Shown here: in pieces, positions 37,724-44,681 of the stretch
Position numbering within the stretch: the stretch's first letter is position 1
Layout of the letters: the number at the start of each line of letters is the position of its first letter
Assembly (NCBI RefSeq): GCF_004331485.1
Contig: NZ_SJKD01000007.1
Location: forward strand, 124,001 to 188,000
From: Kribbella capetownensis
GTDB lineage: Bacteria; Actinomycetota; Actinomycetes; Propionibacteriales; Kribbellaceae
DNA: 64,000 bases
Direction: 5' to 3'
Position numbers and translations under genes: made by a program
The notes under the pieces: generated by a model
Databases searched by the model: none
What the model was told of the DNA's origin: nothing
Seen by the model: only the letters and a program-made list of their open reading frames with translations

Positions 37724-37794
37724 GAGATCCAGGATAAGTCCGCTTGACAGACTCAGCCAACCCGGGCAACCCTGAATCCGTGAACCAGACTCAG

Positions 37795-38379
37795 ATGGGT
37801 ACGCCGCTCATCCGCCGCGCCGGAGAACCCGACGCGGACGAGCTGGCGCGAATGCTGACCGGGCTGACCGACCTCAGCCTCTACTTCCGGTTCCAGACCG
37901 CGATCGGCCGGCCACCCCGGCCCGCGCTCCTGCTCCGGCTGCTGTGTCCCACCGGCGCGTCCTGGGTGTCGACCCGGGGCGACACGATCGTCGGCCACTC
38001 GATGTGGGCGTGGGCTCACGGCTACGACGCGACGGCTGAACTCGCGGTGATCATCAGCGAGGACGAACAGGGCCGCGGGCTCGGCGTCCGGATGCTGGCG
38101 ACGGCCGCGGCCGGAGCGATCGCGGCCGGTGCCACCCGGTTCCTGTTCGTGGTCAGCCCGGCCAACGACCGGAGCCTCCGGATGATCCGCCGCCGGCGGC
38201 CGGAGGCAACGGTCGAACGCGACGGCACGTTGCTGAACTTCGTCGTCCCGGCCCGCCTAACGGACCAGCCGGAAGAAAGCACGGATGTCGTCGACGAGCA
38301 GGTCCGGCGCCTCCAGTGCGGCGAAGTGCCCACCGCGGTCGAACTCCGACCAATGGACGATGCGGTGCCGGCGGTCTAG
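37795..38379 (+). CDS. GNAT family N-acetyltransferase
   Basis: 194 residues from ATG 37795; GTG 37780 and TTG 37744 are in frame. The acetyl-CoA motif reads EDEQGRGLGVRML, with the preceding beta-strand AELAVIIS. The N-terminal TGLTDLSLYFRFQ pattern occurs in GNATs fused to or related to acyl-CoA-synthetase regulators. Substrate is unknown. The last 41 residues are antisense to the epoxide hydrolase and may not be conserved. Confidence 0.8.
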   Translation: MGTPLIRRAGEPDADELARMLTGLTDLSLYFRFQTAIGRPPRPALLLRLLCPTGASWVSTRGDTIVGHSMWAWAHGYDATAELAVIISEDEQGRGLGVRMLATAAAGAIAAGATRFLFVVSPANDRSLRMIRRRRPEATVERDGTLLNFVVPARLTDQPEESTDVVDEQVRRLQCGEVPTAVELRPMDDAVPAV

Positions 38380-39387
38380 CACTCGCCGGATCGCCGGATC
38401 GGTCGGGAACACGGCGACACCGGTCGGCACTCCGGACGGTTCGAGTACTTCGTCGGCCGCGACCCGATTCTCGAAGTACAGGTTGGCCGATGAGGCACTG
38501 GTGTTGGTGAACCAGTAGATCGATGCGTCCGTCAACAAATGGTCGAGGTCGACCGCGTCCTCGGGCAGCGCACGGGCCGGATCCGTCCATTCCCAGAACT
38601 TCTCCAGGATCCACGCCAGTTGCCCGACCGGCGAGTCGCTCAACCCGAAGGACACCGTCTGCGGTCGCGTGCCCTGCAGCTCGGCGTATCCGGTCCCGAC
38701 TTCCCGCAGACGTTCGGCCGCCGCGAGCCGTTCCCGCTCGACGTCGGTCAGGTGCTCGGCGTCACCCGGCACGAGCGGCGGAAACGCCAGGCCGCCGTTG
38801 ATGTGTACGCCGACAACGTGGGACGGATCGACGTACCCGAGCAGTGGGGACACGACCGATCCCGTGTCGCCGCCCTGGGCGCCGTACCGCTGGTAGCCCA
38901 ACTCCTGCATCAAGACCGCCCACGCCTGCGCGATCCGGCGATGGTTCCAGCCGGGGCTCTCGAGCGGGACCGAGAAGCCGTGTCCCGGCACGGAGGGTGC
39001 CACCACGTGGAAGGCGTCGCGCGGATCCCCGCCATACGACGCGGGGTCGGTGAGCGGGCCGAGAAGCGGCAGGAACTCCGCGACCGACCCCGGCCAGCCG
39101 TGCGTGAGGATCAACGGCAACGCGTCCGCCTCCGGCGACCGAGCATGCAGGAAGTGAATCGTCTGCTCGTCGATCCGCGTCGTGTACTGCGGATACGCGT
39201 TGAGCCGCGCTTCCCACGCCCGCCAGTCGTACGCCTGCCATCGCGCCACGATCCCCTGCAGATATTCGAGCGGTACGCCGCGATGCCACCCGCTACCCGG
39301 CAGTTGTCGCGGCCACCGGATCCGCCGCAAGCGCGCGGCGAGATCCTCCAGGGCGGCGTCCGGAACGTCGATCCTGAAATCGATCAC
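38257..39387 (-). CDS. Epoxide hydrolase (alpha/beta-hydrolase)
   Basis: 376 residues. The N-terminal EHN domain (1-105) is the microsomal-type extension (WPRQLPGSGWHRGVPLEYLQ). HGWPGS forms the oxyanion site, GAQGGDTGS holds the nucleophilic Asp, and DRGGHFAALEAPD the catalytic His. It opens epoxides to diols. It begins 3 nt after the VOC gene and is the last gene of the P450 operon, so it may hydrolyse an epoxide made by the P450. Confidence 0.93.
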   Translation of the reverse strand: MIDFRIDVPDAALEDLAARLRRIRWPRQLPGSGWHRGVPLEYLQGIVARWQAYDWRAWEARLNAYPQYTTRIDEQTIHFLHARSPEADALPLILTHGWPGSVAEFLPLLGPLTDPASYGGDPRDAFHVVAPSVPGHGFSVPLESPGWNHRRIAQAWAVLMQELGYQRYGAQGGDTGSVVSPLLGYVDPSHVVGVHINGGLAFPPLVPGDAEHLTDVERERLAAAERLREVGTGYAELQGTRPQTVSFGLSDSPVGQLAWILEKFWEWTDPARALPEDAVDLDHLLTDASIYWFTNTSASSANLYFENRVAADEVLEPSGVPTGVAVFPTDPAIRRVLDRRHRIVHWSEFDRGGHFAALEAPDLLVDDIRAFFRLVR

Positions 39388-39390
39388 GAC

Positions 39391-39747
39391 TCAGAGGTCG
39401 TGCGCGCGCTCATGCAACGGCTCGTACAGCCCGAGCTCGCTTCCACCGGGCAATCGGATCGACGTCAGCACGCCCCACGGCTGCCGCTCCGGCTGCTTGA
39501 CGAACTCCACCCCGCTCGCTGTCAGCTCGGCGATCGTCGCGTCGAGGTCGTCGCACATCAGGAACAGCTCGTGCGAGTCCACCTCGGCCGGATGCACCGC
39601 CACCTCGGCGGGCGGCAACTTGAAGATCAGCCACCCGCGTCCGGCATCCACATGCGGATACCGGAGCACGTCCCGGAAGAAGTCCCGATCGGCCTCAGCG
39701 TCGCGGCTGTAGATGATCACATGCGCACCGTTGATCATCTTCCGCAC
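39391..39747 (-). CDS. VOC (glyoxalase/bleomycin-resistance) family protein
   Basis: 118 residues from GTG 39747, or 115 from ATG 39738. Two beta-alpha-beta-beta-beta units are visible, with His9 in NGAHVIIYSRD, LFLMCDDLDA and the closing SELGLYEP that supplies the metal-ligand Glu. Members are lyases, dioxygenases or binding proteins. It is 3 nt before the epoxide hydrolase and 40 nt after the ferredoxin gene, which suggests a place in the same pathway. Confidence 0.85.
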   Translation of the reverse strand: MRKMINGAHVIIYSRDAEADRDFFRDVLRYPHVDAGRGWLIFKLPPAEVAVHPAEVDSHELFLMCDDLDATIAELTASGVEFVKQPERQPWGVLTSIRLPGGSELGLYEPLHERAHDL

Positions 39748-39786
39748 TCTAGTCGGCCCGCGCGGTGTGCGCGCGGGCCGACCGGT

Positions 39787-39981
39787 TCAGTCCTCGACGA
39801 GGATCGCGAGCGCCGGGCAGACCGCCGCGGCCTGGTGGACGTCGGCGGCAAGGTCCTCGGGCGGGGTGTCGGTGAGCAGGACGACGATGCCGTCCTCGTC
39901 GCGCTGGTCGAAGACGTCGGCGGCGGCCGTGACGCACTGGCCGGAGGCGACGCACCTGTCCTGGTCGACGATGATCTTCAT
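39787..39981 (-). CDS. 3Fe-4S ferredoxin for the P450
   Basis: 64 residues. Cysteines at 10, 16 and 55 (C-X5-C ... CP) bind a 3Fe-4S cluster; Ser13 takes the place of the fourth Cys of 4Fe-4S proteins. This is the short ferredoxin type that passes electrons to actinobacterial P450s. It follows the P450 stop by 30 nt. Confidence 0.95.
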   Translation of the reverse strand: MKIIVDQDRCVASGQCVTAAADVFDQRDEDGIVVLLTDTPPEDLAADVHQAAAVCPALAILVED

Positions 39982-40011
39982 GACGATGGCCTCGATTTCT
40001 TCGAGTAGGGG

Positions 40012-41220
40012 CTACCAGGTGACAGGCAGCGAGTGGACGCCGTACACGGCTCCCTCGTGCTTGAACGGGATCTCGTCCAGCTCGGCCGCCCGCCGCAGAG
40101 TGGGGATGCGGCGGTAGAGGGTGCTGTAGACGACCTGCAGCTCCATCCGCGCGAGTGGTTGCCCAAGGCACTGATGTACGCCGAAGCCGAAGGCCACGTG
40201 CCGCCGCGCATCGCGCTGCAGGTCGAGCACGTCCGGATCCGGGAACACCTCCGGGTCGCGGTTGCCGATGTCGTTCGGGAAGATCACGCCGTCACCGGCC
40301 TTCAGCACCTGCCCGTCGAGCTCGATGTCCTCGAGCACCGCCCGCCGGCGGCCGTTGTGGGTGATGTTCAGGTACCGCAGCAACTCCTCGACCGCGCCCG
40401 CGACCAGCTTCGGGTCGTCGGTCTCCCGCAGTACGGCGAGCTGCTCGGGGTGCTCCAGCAACGCGAGGGTGCCGAGGGCAATCATATTCGCGGTGGTCTC
40501 GTGGCCGGCGAGCAACAGCAGTACGCCGATGCCGGCCGCGTCCTGGCGGGTCAGCTCACCGGTCTTGATCCGCTCGGTCAGCCCGGACAGCAGGTCGTCA
40601 CCGGGGTTGTCCAGCTTCTCCCCGACCAGATTGTCCAGGTAGGCGGCCAGGTTCCCGTGGGCCGTCGCGCGTTGTTCCTGCGTGGCAGTCATCTTGATCA
40701 GTTGCTTGCTGTTCTGCTGGAAGAAGTCGTGGTCGGCGTACGGGACACCGAGCAGCTGGCAGATCACCAGCGACGGCACCGGCAGCGCGAACGCCTCCAT
40801 CAGGTCGACCGGCTTCGGCCCGGCCAGCAGGTCGTCGATCAGGCCGTCCACGATCTTCTGTACGCCGGGGCGCATCGCCTCGACCCGCTTGATCATGAAC
40901 GGCGCGGTCACCATCCGGCGCAGCCTCGCGTGTTCAGGATCGTCCATCAGGATGAACCCGATCCCGACCCCGCCGTCGGACTTCGGCGGCGTACCGGTCG
41001 GGCTCGGGTACCCGGACGTGGTGACGTCCGCGCTGAGCCGCGGATCCGCGAGCAGCTTGCGCTGCTCGGCGTACCGGGTGACCAGCCAGGCGGGTCTGCC
41101 GAAGATCTGGACCTCGACCAGCGGCGCCTCGTCCTGCAGCTCGCGCAACTTCGGCGGCGGGTCGAACGGACATCCGCTCGCCCTCGCCATCGGGTACGCC
41201 GGAGCTTCGTGGATCGTCAT
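40012..41220 (-). CDS. Cytochrome P450
   Basis: 402 residues from ATG 41220, whose first bases overlap the reductase stop (ATGA). The I-helix oxygen motif AGHETT is at 238-243, the ExxR pair at E279/R282, and the heme-ligand Cys at 351 in FGFGVHQCLGQPLAR. The protein is soluble and of standard bacterial length. Clustered reductase and ferredoxin genes make a complete class I electron chain. An epoxide hydrolase downstream hints at epoxidation of an alkene or arene. Substrate is unknown. Confidence 0.96.
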   Translation of the reverse strand: MTIHEAPAYPMARASGCPFDPPPKLRELQDEAPLVEVQIFGRPAWLVTRYAEQRKLLADPRLSADVTTSGYPSPTGTPPKSDGGVGIGFILMDDPEHARLRRMVTAPFMIKRVEAMRPGVQKIVDGLIDDLLAGPKPVDLMEAFALPVPSLVICQLLGVPYADHDFFQQNSKQLIKMTATQEQRATAHGNLAAYLDNLVGEKLDNPGDDLLSGLTERIKTGELTRQDAAGIGVLLLLAGHETTANMIALGTLALLEHPEQLAVLRETDDPKLVAGAVEELLRYLNITHNGRRRAVLEDIELDGQVLKAGDGVIFPNDIGNRDPEVFPDPDVLDLQRDARRHVAFGFGVHQCLGQPLARMELQVVYSTLYRRIPTLRRAAELDEIPFKHEGAVYGVHSLPVTW

Positions 41221-42419
41221 CGGAATCCTTCCCCAGAGAGGTTCTCGATCGGGTCGCCAGACGCGGCCCACGCCCGCACCAAGTGCTCCCGGTGCAGGCG
41301 GGTCTGTTTGGGCATGTTGCAGCCGAGGACGGCGACCACCTCGCCCGAGCGGCGGTAGTGGACGACGAATCGGCGGTTCTCGAGGTGGCCTTCAGCAACT
41401 GCCACCTCGGCGGCGGCCGAGGGCAGGCCGTAGGCCTGGATCTTGGTGGCGAACTGGTCGGTCCAGAAGTACGGCACCGGCGTGTACGACTGCGCCTCGC
41501 CGACGATGTTGGCCGCGACGCACGCGGCTTGCTCGGTCGCGTTGGTCCGATTCTCCAAGCGGAGCAGGGAATCCAGGCCGGCGTGATGCCACCGAGCCAC
41601 GTCGCCGGCGGCATAGATCCCGTCCGCCGCCCGGCACCGGGAGTCACACACCAATCCGTTGTCGAGCTCGAGCCCGCTACCCGCCAGCCACTCCGTGGCC
41701 GGAGCCGCGCCCAGCGCCACCACAACCAGATCGGCCGGCACCACCTCACCGTCTTCCAGCCGTACGCCGCTCACCAGACCATCGACCGCAGTCATCCCGG
41801 TCACCGCCGTACCGAGCCTCAGTTCCACGCCCTCCGCCGCGTGCAGCTCAGCCAGCAGCCCGGCCACCATCGGACCGAACTGACTCTCCAACGGCGCCGA
41901 CTGCGGTCCGGCCATCGTCACGCTCAACCCCAGCATGCGCGTGGTGGCGGCGATCTCCGCCCCGAGTACGCCGTCGCCTACGACGACCACCCGCGAAGCC
42001 TCGACCAGGCCCTTCCGCAACGCGGTGGCGTCGTCCACGGTCCGCAGTACGTGAACTCCTCTGAGCTCACCCAGCCCCGGCAGCACCCGCGCCCGCAGTC
42101 CGGTCGCAACCACGATCGCGTCCGCCCGCAGTTCCCTGCCTGCCGCGGTGTGGACGGTACGACGTTCGACGTCGAGAGCAACTGCGGAGTCGCCGAGCAC
42201 GAACTCGGCGTCCAGGGCCGACAACATCGTGTCCGGCCGGAGCCTCGTCCGGCCGAAGTCCCAGACGCCGGCCAGGAACTGTTTGGACAGCGGCGGCCGG
42301 TCGTACGGAAGATGCGGCTCGGCGTCGAGCACCGTGATCGTGTCCCGGTATCCCTTGCGGCGAAGGGCTTCCACGGTGGACAGCCCGGCCGCCGAGGCAC
42401 CGATGACGAGTGCTGTCAC
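41217..42419 (-). CDS. FAD-dependent ferredoxin reductase
   Basis: 400 residues from GTG 42419. The first FAD loop is VIGASAAGLS, the NAD loop is VVVGDGVLGAEIAA, and DGIYAAGDVARW closes the flavin site. The PYDRPPLSKQFL segment is typical of reductases serving P450 or Rieske systems. It takes electrons from NAD(P)H to the 3Fe-4S ferredoxin. Its start overlaps the TetR stop and its stop overlaps the P450 start. Confidence 0.95.
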   Translation of the reverse strand: MTALVIGASAAGLSTVEALRRKGYRDTITVLDAEPHLPYDRPPLSKQFLAGVWDFGRTRLRPDTMLSALDAEFVLGDSAVALDVERRTVHTAAGRELRADAIVVATGLRARVLPGLGELRGVHVLRTVDDATALRKGLVEASRVVVVGDGVLGAEIAATTRMLGLSVTMAGPQSAPLESQFGPMVAGLLAELHAAEGVELRLGTAVTGMTAVDGLVSGVRLEDGEVVPADLVVVALGAAPATEWLAGSGLELDNGLVCDSRCRAADGIYAAGDVARWHHAGLDSLLRLENRTNATEQAACVAANIVGEAQSYTPVPYFWTDQFATKIQAYGLPSAAAEVAVAEGHLENRRFVVHYRRSGEVVAVLGCNMPKQTRLHREHLVRAWAASGDPIENLSGEGFR

Positions 42420-43063
42420 CGAGTCACCGGTGCGGTCCAGAGACCGACCAGGCCGTCGATCAGACCGGTCGCCATGTCGTGCCAGGTGGCTCGCGCGGTC
42501 GGCGTACCCTCCGCTACCGCACGCTCGTACTCAGCACACATCTGCACGATCACGCTGCGGGCCATGTCGCCGCGCTCCAACCGGACCTCGAGCGGCAGAT
42601 CCGCCAGGCACTCACTGAGACCGTCGAGGATCTTGCGCATCATCGGCGACGTCAGCGATTCCTCGATCACCACCTCGCGCAAGGACGGGTCGTTCATCAA
42701 CTGCGCGTTGAACCGGGCCAGCCAGCTCGGCACGCCGAGGCTGCCCATATGGTCGGTGGCCGGCCGGACCAGGCAGACGATCCAGTCCCGCACGTCCGTG
42801 CTGCCCTCGGCCGCGGCGACCAGTTCCTTGCGCCGCTCCTCGATCTGCTCGGAGTGCTTGCGCGCGATCGCCCGGACCAGGTCGGTCTTGGTCCCGAAGT
42901 GGTAGCCGACCGCGGTGTTGTTGCCCTGCCCGGCAGCCTCGCTGATCTGGCGGTTGGACACCTCGTGCACGCCGCGCTCGGCGAACATCCGCTCCGCGGT
43001 CGCCAGGATCAGCTCCCGGGTCGCGTTCACCCGCTGGGTCCGGACCGTCTTCGCCATCATCAT
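42416..43063 (-). CDS. TetR family regulator of the P450 operon
   Basis: 215 residues if the first of three consecutive ATG codons (43063) is used; GTG 43069 and ATG 43057 are equally possible. The helix-turn-helix (about 12-60) reads ILATAERMFAERGVHEVSNRQISEAAG...VGYHFGTK. The rest is an all-helical ligand domain. It is the first gene of the operon and is divergent from an MFS exporter. The palindrome at 43176-43197 between them is the likely operator for both units. Confidence 0.92.
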   Translation of the reverse strand: MMMAKTVRTQRVNATRELILATAERMFAERGVHEVSNRQISEAAGQGNNTAVGYHFGTKTDLVRAIARKHSEQIEERRKELVAAAEGSTDVRDWIVCLVRPATDHMGSLGVPSWLARFNAQLMNDPSLREVVIEESLTSPMMRKILDGLSECLADLPLEVRLERGDMARSVIVQMCAEYERAVAEGTPTARATWHDMATGLIDGLVGLWTAPVTR

Positions 43064-43175
43064 CGCCACATCATCGCCACACCACCGGCACACCCGGCCG
43101 CCCACTGGAGTCACTCCACGTCACCGACCATCACCTCCGCGTCGACTTCTCCTCCAGCTTGCCTCGCCGCCTTGT

Positions 43176-43197
43176 TTAAGTCAACTGCCTGACTTAA
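43176..43197. promoter_or_regulatory. TetR-type operator between TetR and MFS genes
   Basis: TTAAGTCA (43176-43183) and TGACTTAA (43190-43197) are exact reverse complements separated by 6 nt. The region is AT-rich against a GC-rich background and lies in the 184-nt divergent intergenic region. A second short dyad, TGGTTGCGCAAACCA, lies at 43202-43216. Confidence 0.75.
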
Positions 43198-43247
43198 CGT
43201 ATGGTTGCGCAAACCAACTATCTTTCCCGTCCCCTTCGGAGGCGTTG

Positions 43248-44681
43248 ATGTCCGCTGTTCCCACCGAGGTCGATCCCGCCCCGGCGCCGGTTCGCACCGG
43301 TGCCGTCGTACCGGTGCTCGCCTCGGCCGGCATCACGGTCGCGCTGATGCAGACACTCGTGATCCCGCTGGTCCCGGAGTTGCCACGGCTGCTGCACGCC
43401 TCGGCCGCCGGTACGGCGTGGGCGATCACCGCCACCCTGCTCGCGGCCGCCGTGGCCACGCCGATCATGGGCCGGCTCGGCGACATGTACGGCAAGCGCC
43501 GGATGCTGCTGATCAGCGTCGCGATGCTGGTCAGCGGCTCCGTCGTCGCCGCGCTGAGCAGTTCGCTCACGCCGATGATCGTCGGCCGGGCGATGCAGGG
43601 CCTGGCGTCCGGCGTCATCCCGCTCGGCATCAGCATCATGCGCGACGAACTCCCCCGCGAGAAGCTCGGTACGGCGACCGCCCAGATGAGCGCGTCCCTC
43701 GGCGTCGGCGGCGCCCTCGGTCTGCCTGCGGCCGCACTGCTCGCCGAGAACACCAACTGGCACAACCTGTTCTGGGTGTCGGCCGCTCTCGGACTCATCG
43801 TCTTCGGGCTGGTCCTACGGTTCGTGCCGGAGTCGTCCGTGCGATCCGGCGGACGGTTCGACGTACCCGGTGGGGTCGGCCTGTCGGCCGGGCTGATCTC
43901 GTTGCTGCTGGCAATCTCTCAGGGCGCCGGCTGGGGCTGGACCAGCGCGCGGACGCTCGGCCTGTTCGCGTTCGCCATCGTCGTACTGCTGGTGTGGGGC
44001 TGGTGGGAACGCCGTACGACCGAGCCGCTGGTCGACCTGCGGACCACGGCCCGGCCGCAGGTGCTGCTGACCAACCTCGCGTCGATGGTCTTCGGGTTCG
44101 CGATGTTCGCGATGTCGCTGGTCCTGCCGCAGCTGTTGCAGATGCCCAAGGCCACTGGTTTCGGGCTGGGGCAGTCGATGCTCGCGTCCGGCCTGGTGAT
44201 GGGCCCGTCCGGCCTGGTCATGCTGCTGACCGCCCCGCTGTCGGCCCGGATCTCGAACACACGCGGGCCGAAGGTCACCCTCATGCTCGGCGCCGTCGTC
44301 GTCGCGGCCGGCTACGGCTTCGGCAGCGTGCTGATGGGTTCGGTGTGGGAACTCGTCCTGGTGTCGCTGCTGATCGGCGCGGGCATCGGCCTCGCGTACG
44401 GCGCGATGCCCGCGCTGATCATGGCCGCCGTACCGGTGTCGGAGACGGCGGCCGCGAACAGCTTCAACACGCTGATGCGTTCGATCGGTACGTCGGTGTC
44501 CAGCGCGGTCGCGGGCGTGATCCTGGCCCAGCTCACCATCACCCTCGGCGGCTACACGCTGCCGTCCCAGACCGGCTTCCGCGTGGTCCTGATCATCGGC
44601 GCCGGTGCGGCCCTGTCAGCCCTCGCCATCGCCTCGTTCATCCCGGCCCGCGGTGTCAGCGGATCGCTTCGAGGAAGGTGA
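43248..44681 (+). CDS. MFS drug/metabolite exporter
   Basis: 477 residues from ATG 43248 behind CGGAGGCG; the open frame extends far upstream but those codons cross the operator. Hydrophobic helices run throughout. GRLGDMYGKRRM between helices 2 and 3 is the MFS signature, and the GVIPLGISIMRDELPREK region fits proton-coupled multidrug exporters. It probably exports the substrate or product of the divergent P450 operon. Its last 26 nt overlap the dienelactone-hydrolase-like gene. Confidence 0.92.
   Translation: MSAVPTEVDPAPAPVRTGAVVPVLASAGITVALMQTLVIPLVPELPRLLHASAAGTAWAITATLLAAAVATPIMGRLGDMYGKRRMLLISVAMLVSGSVVAALSSSLTPMIVGRAMQGLASGVIPLGISIMRDELPREKLGTATAQMSASLGVGGALGLPAAALLAENTNWHNLFWVSAALGLIVFGLVLRFVPESSVRSGGRFDVPGGVGLSAGLISLLLAISQGAGWGWTSARTLGLFAFAIVVLLVWGWWERRTTEPLVDLRTTARPQVLLTNLASMVFGFAMFAMSLVLPQLLQMPKATGFGLGQSMLASGLVMGPSGLVMLLTAPLSARISNTRGPKVTLMLGAVVVAAGYGFGSVLMGSVWELVLVSLLIGAGIGLAYGAMPALIMAAVPVSETAAANSFNTLMRSIGTSVSSAVAGVILAQLTITLGGYTLPSQTGFRVVLIIGAGAALSALAIASFIPARGVSGSLRGR

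Follow-up and report, generated by a model that had tools for sequence, protein, structure and literature searches.

In Streptomyces griseolus, the herbicide-inducible CYP105A1 (P450-SU1) belongs to a system for inducible xenobiotic oxidation in which a small ferredoxin gene lies beside the P450 gene, an arrangement shared by the locus described here, the cytochrome P450 gene P450a and its neighbors in a 64,000-nucleotide stretch of Kribbella capetownensis (contig NZ_SJKD01000007.1, positions 124,001 to 188,000; the window). P450a is 47% identical to CYP105A1; however, the Kribbella locus adds a TetR-family regulator, a dedicated reductase, and a divergent exporter gene, and many of its relatives also have a second P450. 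The nearest solved structure is PDB 5y1i (485 bits, 57% identity over 402 positions), which a homolog table (PMC8256718) assigns to GfsF, the P450 of FD-891 biosynthesis. According to PMC9113108, GfsF serves a macrolide antibiotic pathway, in which it catalyzes C8/9 epoxidation and then C10 hydroxylation, the latter depending on T300 (a residue whose counterpart in P450a is uncertain and on which nothing here rests). P450a, by comparison, sits in a stand-alone cassette and groups on the P450 tree with relatives whose loci bear a shared operator, while GfsF falls outside this group (a placement that is weakly supported). We propose that the genes at 39787-43063, together with the divergent exporter gene, form a substrate-inducible oxidation-and-export cassette, a reading to which we assign a probability of roughly 60%; its gene content, the conservation of its operator, a gene remnant, and the independent occurrence of a neighboring epoxide hydrolase gene are read from the sequence, and we infer its repression, induction, electron flow, substrate, and export. 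The features of the region are as follows:

43248 to 44681, plus strand: major facilitator superfamily (MFS) exporter, DHA2/EmrB-like (PF07690, 147 bits; TIGR00711 below cut-off), divergent from the TetR gene
43176 to 43197, no strand: palindromic operator and putative TetR site, TTAAGTCA-N6-TGACTTAA (from its conservation; unique in its own genome)
43071 to 43124, minus strand: in-frame remnant of a second P450 gene (P450b), 18 codons including the stop (from alignment to P450b 3' ends)
42416 to 43063, minus strand: TetR-family regulator (PF00440, 36 bits)
41217 to 42419, minus strand: NAD(P)H ferredoxin reductase (FdR) of the putidaredoxin/biphenyl-dioxygenase reductase type (PF07992, 180 bits; PF14759, 46 bits; nearest PDB entries 3fg2 and 1d7y)
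40012 to 41220, minus strand: cytochrome P450 (P450a), CYP105-like (PF00067, 104 bits; nearest PDB entry 5y1i)
39787 to 39981, minus strand: single-cluster ferredoxin (PF13459/PF13370; C-x5-C...CP)
39752 to 39782, minus strand: 13-bp perfect GC hairpin in the ferredoxin-VOC gap (z −2.94), a possible terminator without a U-tract
39746 to 39751, minus strand: TAGAGT, a −10-like element of the leaderless type, 7 nt ahead of the VOC ATG
39391 to 39738, minus strand: VOC-family protein (PF00903, 32 bits), probably in a neighboring unit outside the cassette
38257 to 39387, minus strand: microsomal-type epoxide hydrolase (EH; PF06441, 126 bits; PDB 5f4z, 422 bits, and 4i19, 400 bits), probably in the same neighboring unit

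A preliminary description of this DNA recognized six minus-strand genes with these domains, the first three joined by 4-nt overlaps, and a divergent MFS gene, all of which hold up against the open reading frame (ORF) list, the sequence, and a Pfam scan; the hairpin, the operator, and the P450b remnant are additions to that description. The TetR and FdR genes overlap by GTGA (42416-42419) and the FdR and P450a genes by ATGA (41217-41220); the P450a-ferredoxin, ferredoxin-VOC, and VOC-EH distances are 30 nt, 39 nt (48 nt to the ATG at 39738), and 3 nt, respectively. P450a has the AGHETT, ExxR, and FGxGxHxCxG heme loop motifs, and the three cysteines of the ferredoxin (C-x5-C...CP) follow the [3Fe-4S] type pattern (both by eye). 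With FdR and a ferredoxin encoded beside P450a, the locus has the makeup of a three-component bacterial P450 system, and, as expected of a local TetR repressor, the regulator has a helix-turn-helix domain and a palindrome lies between its gene and the divergent MFS gene. The proposal that the P450 comes with all of its electron carriers, a dedicated regulator, and an exporter is sustained as well: the genes and the shared operator recur in other genera, although their order varies.

We searched P450a in 38 Kribbella genomes, including that of the window, and found matches at 1e-60 in 37; full-length copies at 76-89% are present in 15 genomes besides the window, and one genome (G015) has only the C-terminal part, at 97%. 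The window proteins were mapped on 45 Kribbella stretches (25 fetched via the P450 and 20 via EH), and a wider comparison used 80 P450 loci kept from a larger collection, five from Kribbella and 75 from elsewhere, seven of the latter with a flank of <9 kb. Genes in relatives were called by a simple script and tblastn, on which the identities and absences reported here depend. At the Kribbella site, an MFS gene diverges from a TetR-FdR-P450-ferredoxin row in 15 loci (the window, L032-L034, and L036-L046). The 75 non-Kribbella loci have a ferredoxin in 64 cases, TetR in 44, the operator in 42, FdR in 41, MFS in 21 (again in the divergent position), and P450b in 19. Four Kribbella loci have eroded cassettes at the same site (L048, L057, L058, and L064); the closest relative, L048, is missing a 2.6-kb segment (window positions 40825 to 43454) and with it TetR, FdR, and the beginnings of the P450 and MFS genes. 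The junction, around position 8769 of L048, has ~9 bp of shared sequence.

The operator is a perfect palindrome, and its own genome has no second site at up to three mismatches. It is kept in the window and in all 14 other Kribbella loci with cassette and MFS gene, and also in L064, L035, L047, and L049. Outside Kribbella, it lies upstream of the unit and is found within 5.5 kb in 42 of 75 loci, and it is present in 21/21 loci with MFS and 19/19 with P450b. At two mismatches, 46 of the 80 loci have a site, compared with 0/80 shuffled loci of the same base composition. Because the same loci served to refine the consensus, these locus counts are descriptive rather than an independent test; the original palindrome, derived from the window alone, finds a site with at most two mismatches in 16 positions in all 21 non-Kribbella MFS intergenic regions. 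TetR and the operator co-occur in 35 of the 75 loci, with TetR only in nine, the operator only in seven, and neither in 24 (Fisher p 1e-6, uncorrected for relatedness). Rows with the operator group together on the P450 tree, where the operator label takes 11 changes compared with a shuffled mean of 33.7 (0/500 shuffles as low). Extra operator copies were observed in L101 at −9747 and in L149 at −1072 relative to the P450, with a separate TetR gene ~2 kb away from the former. From the sequence comparison, we infer that TetR-FdR-P450-ferredoxin and MFS constitute one self-regulated oxidation-and-export unit around the palindrome, found across many actinobacteria.

The preliminary description had extended this unit to VOC and EH, as a single operon of six genes: the P450 would epoxidize an alkene or arene, and the hydrolase would convert the epoxide to a diol. 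Close packing on the same strand, the same gene order in L043, and an epoxidase/hydroxylase (GfsF) as the nearest solved P450 speak for this proposal, as do the close PDB relatives of EH and its retention of the EHN domain together with HGWP, the nucleophile Asp in GGDxG, and the His in RGGHFAALE (motifs by eye and alignment). The order, sought elsewhere, does recur uninterrupted in L043; however, this makes only 2 of the 15 Kribbella loci with cassette and MFS, and EH is never adjacent in the 75 non-Kribbella loci, where it lies within 10 kb in only two (L082, 53%; L095, 43%). In six of the 15 (L032-L034 and L036-L038; partial in L032), an NmrA-like gene (named by eye) on the opposite strand separates ferredoxin and VOC; L039 has the NmrA-like gene and EH while VOC is missing, and in L040 and L046, EH is present but VOC is not (in the L046 genome, EH carries one stop). 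EH is reduced to a fragment in L041 and missing in L044, which keeps VOC; L042 and L045 lack both at the site, but EH is found near contig ends in these two genomes (L070, L068), and they thus carry no weight for or against linkage. Conversely, EH persists at the same site without any cassette gene in five genomes, with VOC in L059, L060, and L063 and without it in L061 and L062. EH matches at 1e-100 occur in 38/38 Kribbella genomes, and no clear EH partner was found among the neighbors at nine nonsyntenic Kribbella EH loci. The nearest solved relatives of EH, PDB 5f4z and 4i19, are presumably from enediyne producers; the window EH differs from them in that no PKS-like neighbor is found among the window genes tested and in that such hydrolases are present throughout the genus. 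A GNAT-family gene (37780-38379) converges on EH with a 3' overlap of 123 bp, and many relatives have a comparable overlap.

A separate promoter for the hydrolase, which the preliminary description had itself named as an observation that would speak against its operon, is indicated at the level of comparative sequence. The VOC ORF is listed from a GTG at 39747 (39391-39747), but the conserved ATG at 39738 is the more likely start, with a conserved block (for example, CTACAGTGCTGTAG) just ahead of it. TANNNT lies exactly 7 nt ahead of the VOC start in 14/14 Kribbella VOC loci, whatever lies upstream, and also in 4/8 VOC-less EH loci inspected (L057, L061, L062, and L064; by eye), against a background of 12/675 called genes at this spacing. 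Seven nucleotides ahead of the start is the usual place of the −10 element in leaderless transcripts. No −35 was identified ahead of VOC, and scanning for consensus promoters and terminators yielded no hits that clearly exceeded shuffled sequence; the scan did not pick up the ferredoxin-VOC hairpin either, which among the loci inspected recurs only in L048. Neither a lack of separate promoters nor a stable EH-P450 linkage, as expected of a single six-gene operon, is thus seen in the comparative sequence. VOC and EH probably form a separate small unit with its own, leaderless promoter. Because EH looks like an independent neighbor of the cassette, the proposed oxidize-then-open-epoxide operon is probably not real; we regard it as quite unlikely, and a route from alkene or arene to diol, though chemically possible, has little genomic support.

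The window has also lost a gene. P450b stands ahead of tetR in 9/15 Kribbella cassette loci (L034, L037, L039-L042, and L044-L046) and is missing in six; in L034, its best PDB match is 4xe3 (302 bits), which we take to be OleP, and a mycinamicin IV hydroxylase/epoxidase entry also scores high. In the window, the frame at 43071-43124, which reads VTWSDSSGRPGVPVVWR*, retains the start and end of P450b (alignment score of 39 against P450b 3' ends, compared with a maximum of 28 in 300 shuffles), and the P450b Shine-Dalgarno sequence GGAGG is kept at 43134-43138. L032, L033, and L036 have different in-frame remnants (24 terminal codons in the map of L033) and L038 an out-of-frame one; the P450b start of L043 is continuous with the tetR reading frame (by eye), while in the end-alignment test, L043 and L064 were not above shuffles. 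P450b was thus lost at this site, and probably on more than one occasion. The repeated, mostly in-frame deletion, with the ribosome site and start kept, may reflect selection for translational coupling, although the numbers are small.

With regard to the P450a substrate, P450 families are named on the basis of at least ~40% identity to named members, and P450a, with 394 bits to CYP105Q4 in addition to its identity to CYP105A1, would fall within CYP105 by this rule. Because its nearest solved relative is a macrolide epoxidase/hydroxylase, epoxidation and a large polyketide-like substrate are both plausible for P450a, although a relatedness of 57% does not fix the substrate. This relatedness, together with a best NCBIfam match to pentalenolactone synthase (265 bits, far under the cut-off of 700), would also fit a tailoring enzyme that completes a host-made natural product, much like GfsF in the case of FD-891, with MFS exporting the product. 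We consider this unlikely, since a ketosynthase (KS)-type polyketide synthase (PKS) motif was found in only 2 of the 80 loci (the search covered this motif among cluster types), no biosynthetic core enzyme was recognized by Pfam among ten further window neighbors (one of them without a match), and loss of the cassette from its site is common in relatives. The ten neighbors include AzlC, several helix-turn-helix regulators, a methyltransferase, an acyl-CoA thioester hydrolase/BAAT protein, and a PhyH protein. Two other Kribbella genomes (L047 and L055) have a tandem pair of P450a copies adjoining a ferredoxin, and 13 non-Kribbella loci, including L088 and L091, have a conserved gene of ~240 amino acids ~1 kb upstream of P450a that, judged by eye, resembles an OmpR-type response regulator.

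In the oxidation-and-export reading that we prefer, TetR would bind the palindrome at 43176-43197 and hold both divergent transcripts off until a toxic or signaling small molecule, host-made or foreign, releases it. Electrons would then pass from NAD(P)H via FdR and the small ferredoxin to the P450, which would hydroxylate or epoxidize the molecule, and the MFS protein would export the molecule or its product. The ancestral unit had P450b ahead of tetR, deleted in frame in the window, where the leftover ribosome site and start codon probably now drive tetR via translational coupling; VOC-EH would follow downstream with its own, probably leaderless promoter and possibly some read-through. Inducible detoxification fits the combination of a local repressor, an efflux-type MFS, and a P450 accompanied by its redox partners at loci that mostly have no PKS neighbors; the likely function is the TetR-controlled, inducible oxidation of a toxic small molecule and its export. 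That the cassette instead starts the catabolism of a carbon source such as a terpene or plant compound is a very unlikely alternative: related P450 and reductase types do occur in catabolism, but the MFS protein is of the EmrB/DHA2-like efflux type and no known uptake carrier, and no conserved family of at least five loci hinting at ring cleavage or CoA chemistry was recognized in the neighborhood clusters, most of which are unannotated.

Several observations weigh against the oxidation-and-export reading. The cassette is variable outside Kribbella, with MFS near the P450 in only 21/75 loci and FdR in 41/75; the operator is missing in 9/44 TetR loci, and no TetR is nearby in 7/42 operator loci. 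In the window, VOC-EH lies on the same strand only 39-48 nt behind the ferredoxin, and because of this arrangement, read-through into VOC-EH is possible. The uninterrupted six-gene order, moreover, also exists in L043, which is without the hairpin.

More speculatively, the locus may represent a so far undescribed, actinobacteria-wide inducible chemical-defense cassette, in which one TetR, acting through one conserved operator class, controls an exporter and one or two macrolide-type P450s with the redox partners they need, so that soil actinobacteria would oxidize and expel the polyketide-like antibiotics of their neighbors and be protected from them; we hold this idea tentatively and consider it rather doubtful. 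No description of such a cassette, of a Kribbella P450 with an epoxide hydrolase, or of enediyne epoxide hydrolases was found in a few searches of the open-license literature, a partial sample and weak evidence of absence. More generally, the comparison takes the epoxide hydrolase out of the pathway and cautions against inferring function from one tightly packed gene run. If the oxidation-and-export reading is true, one short operator would mark a family of P450 systems that carry dedicated redox partners in many genera, and this family would be suited to substrate finding via TetR ligand screening.

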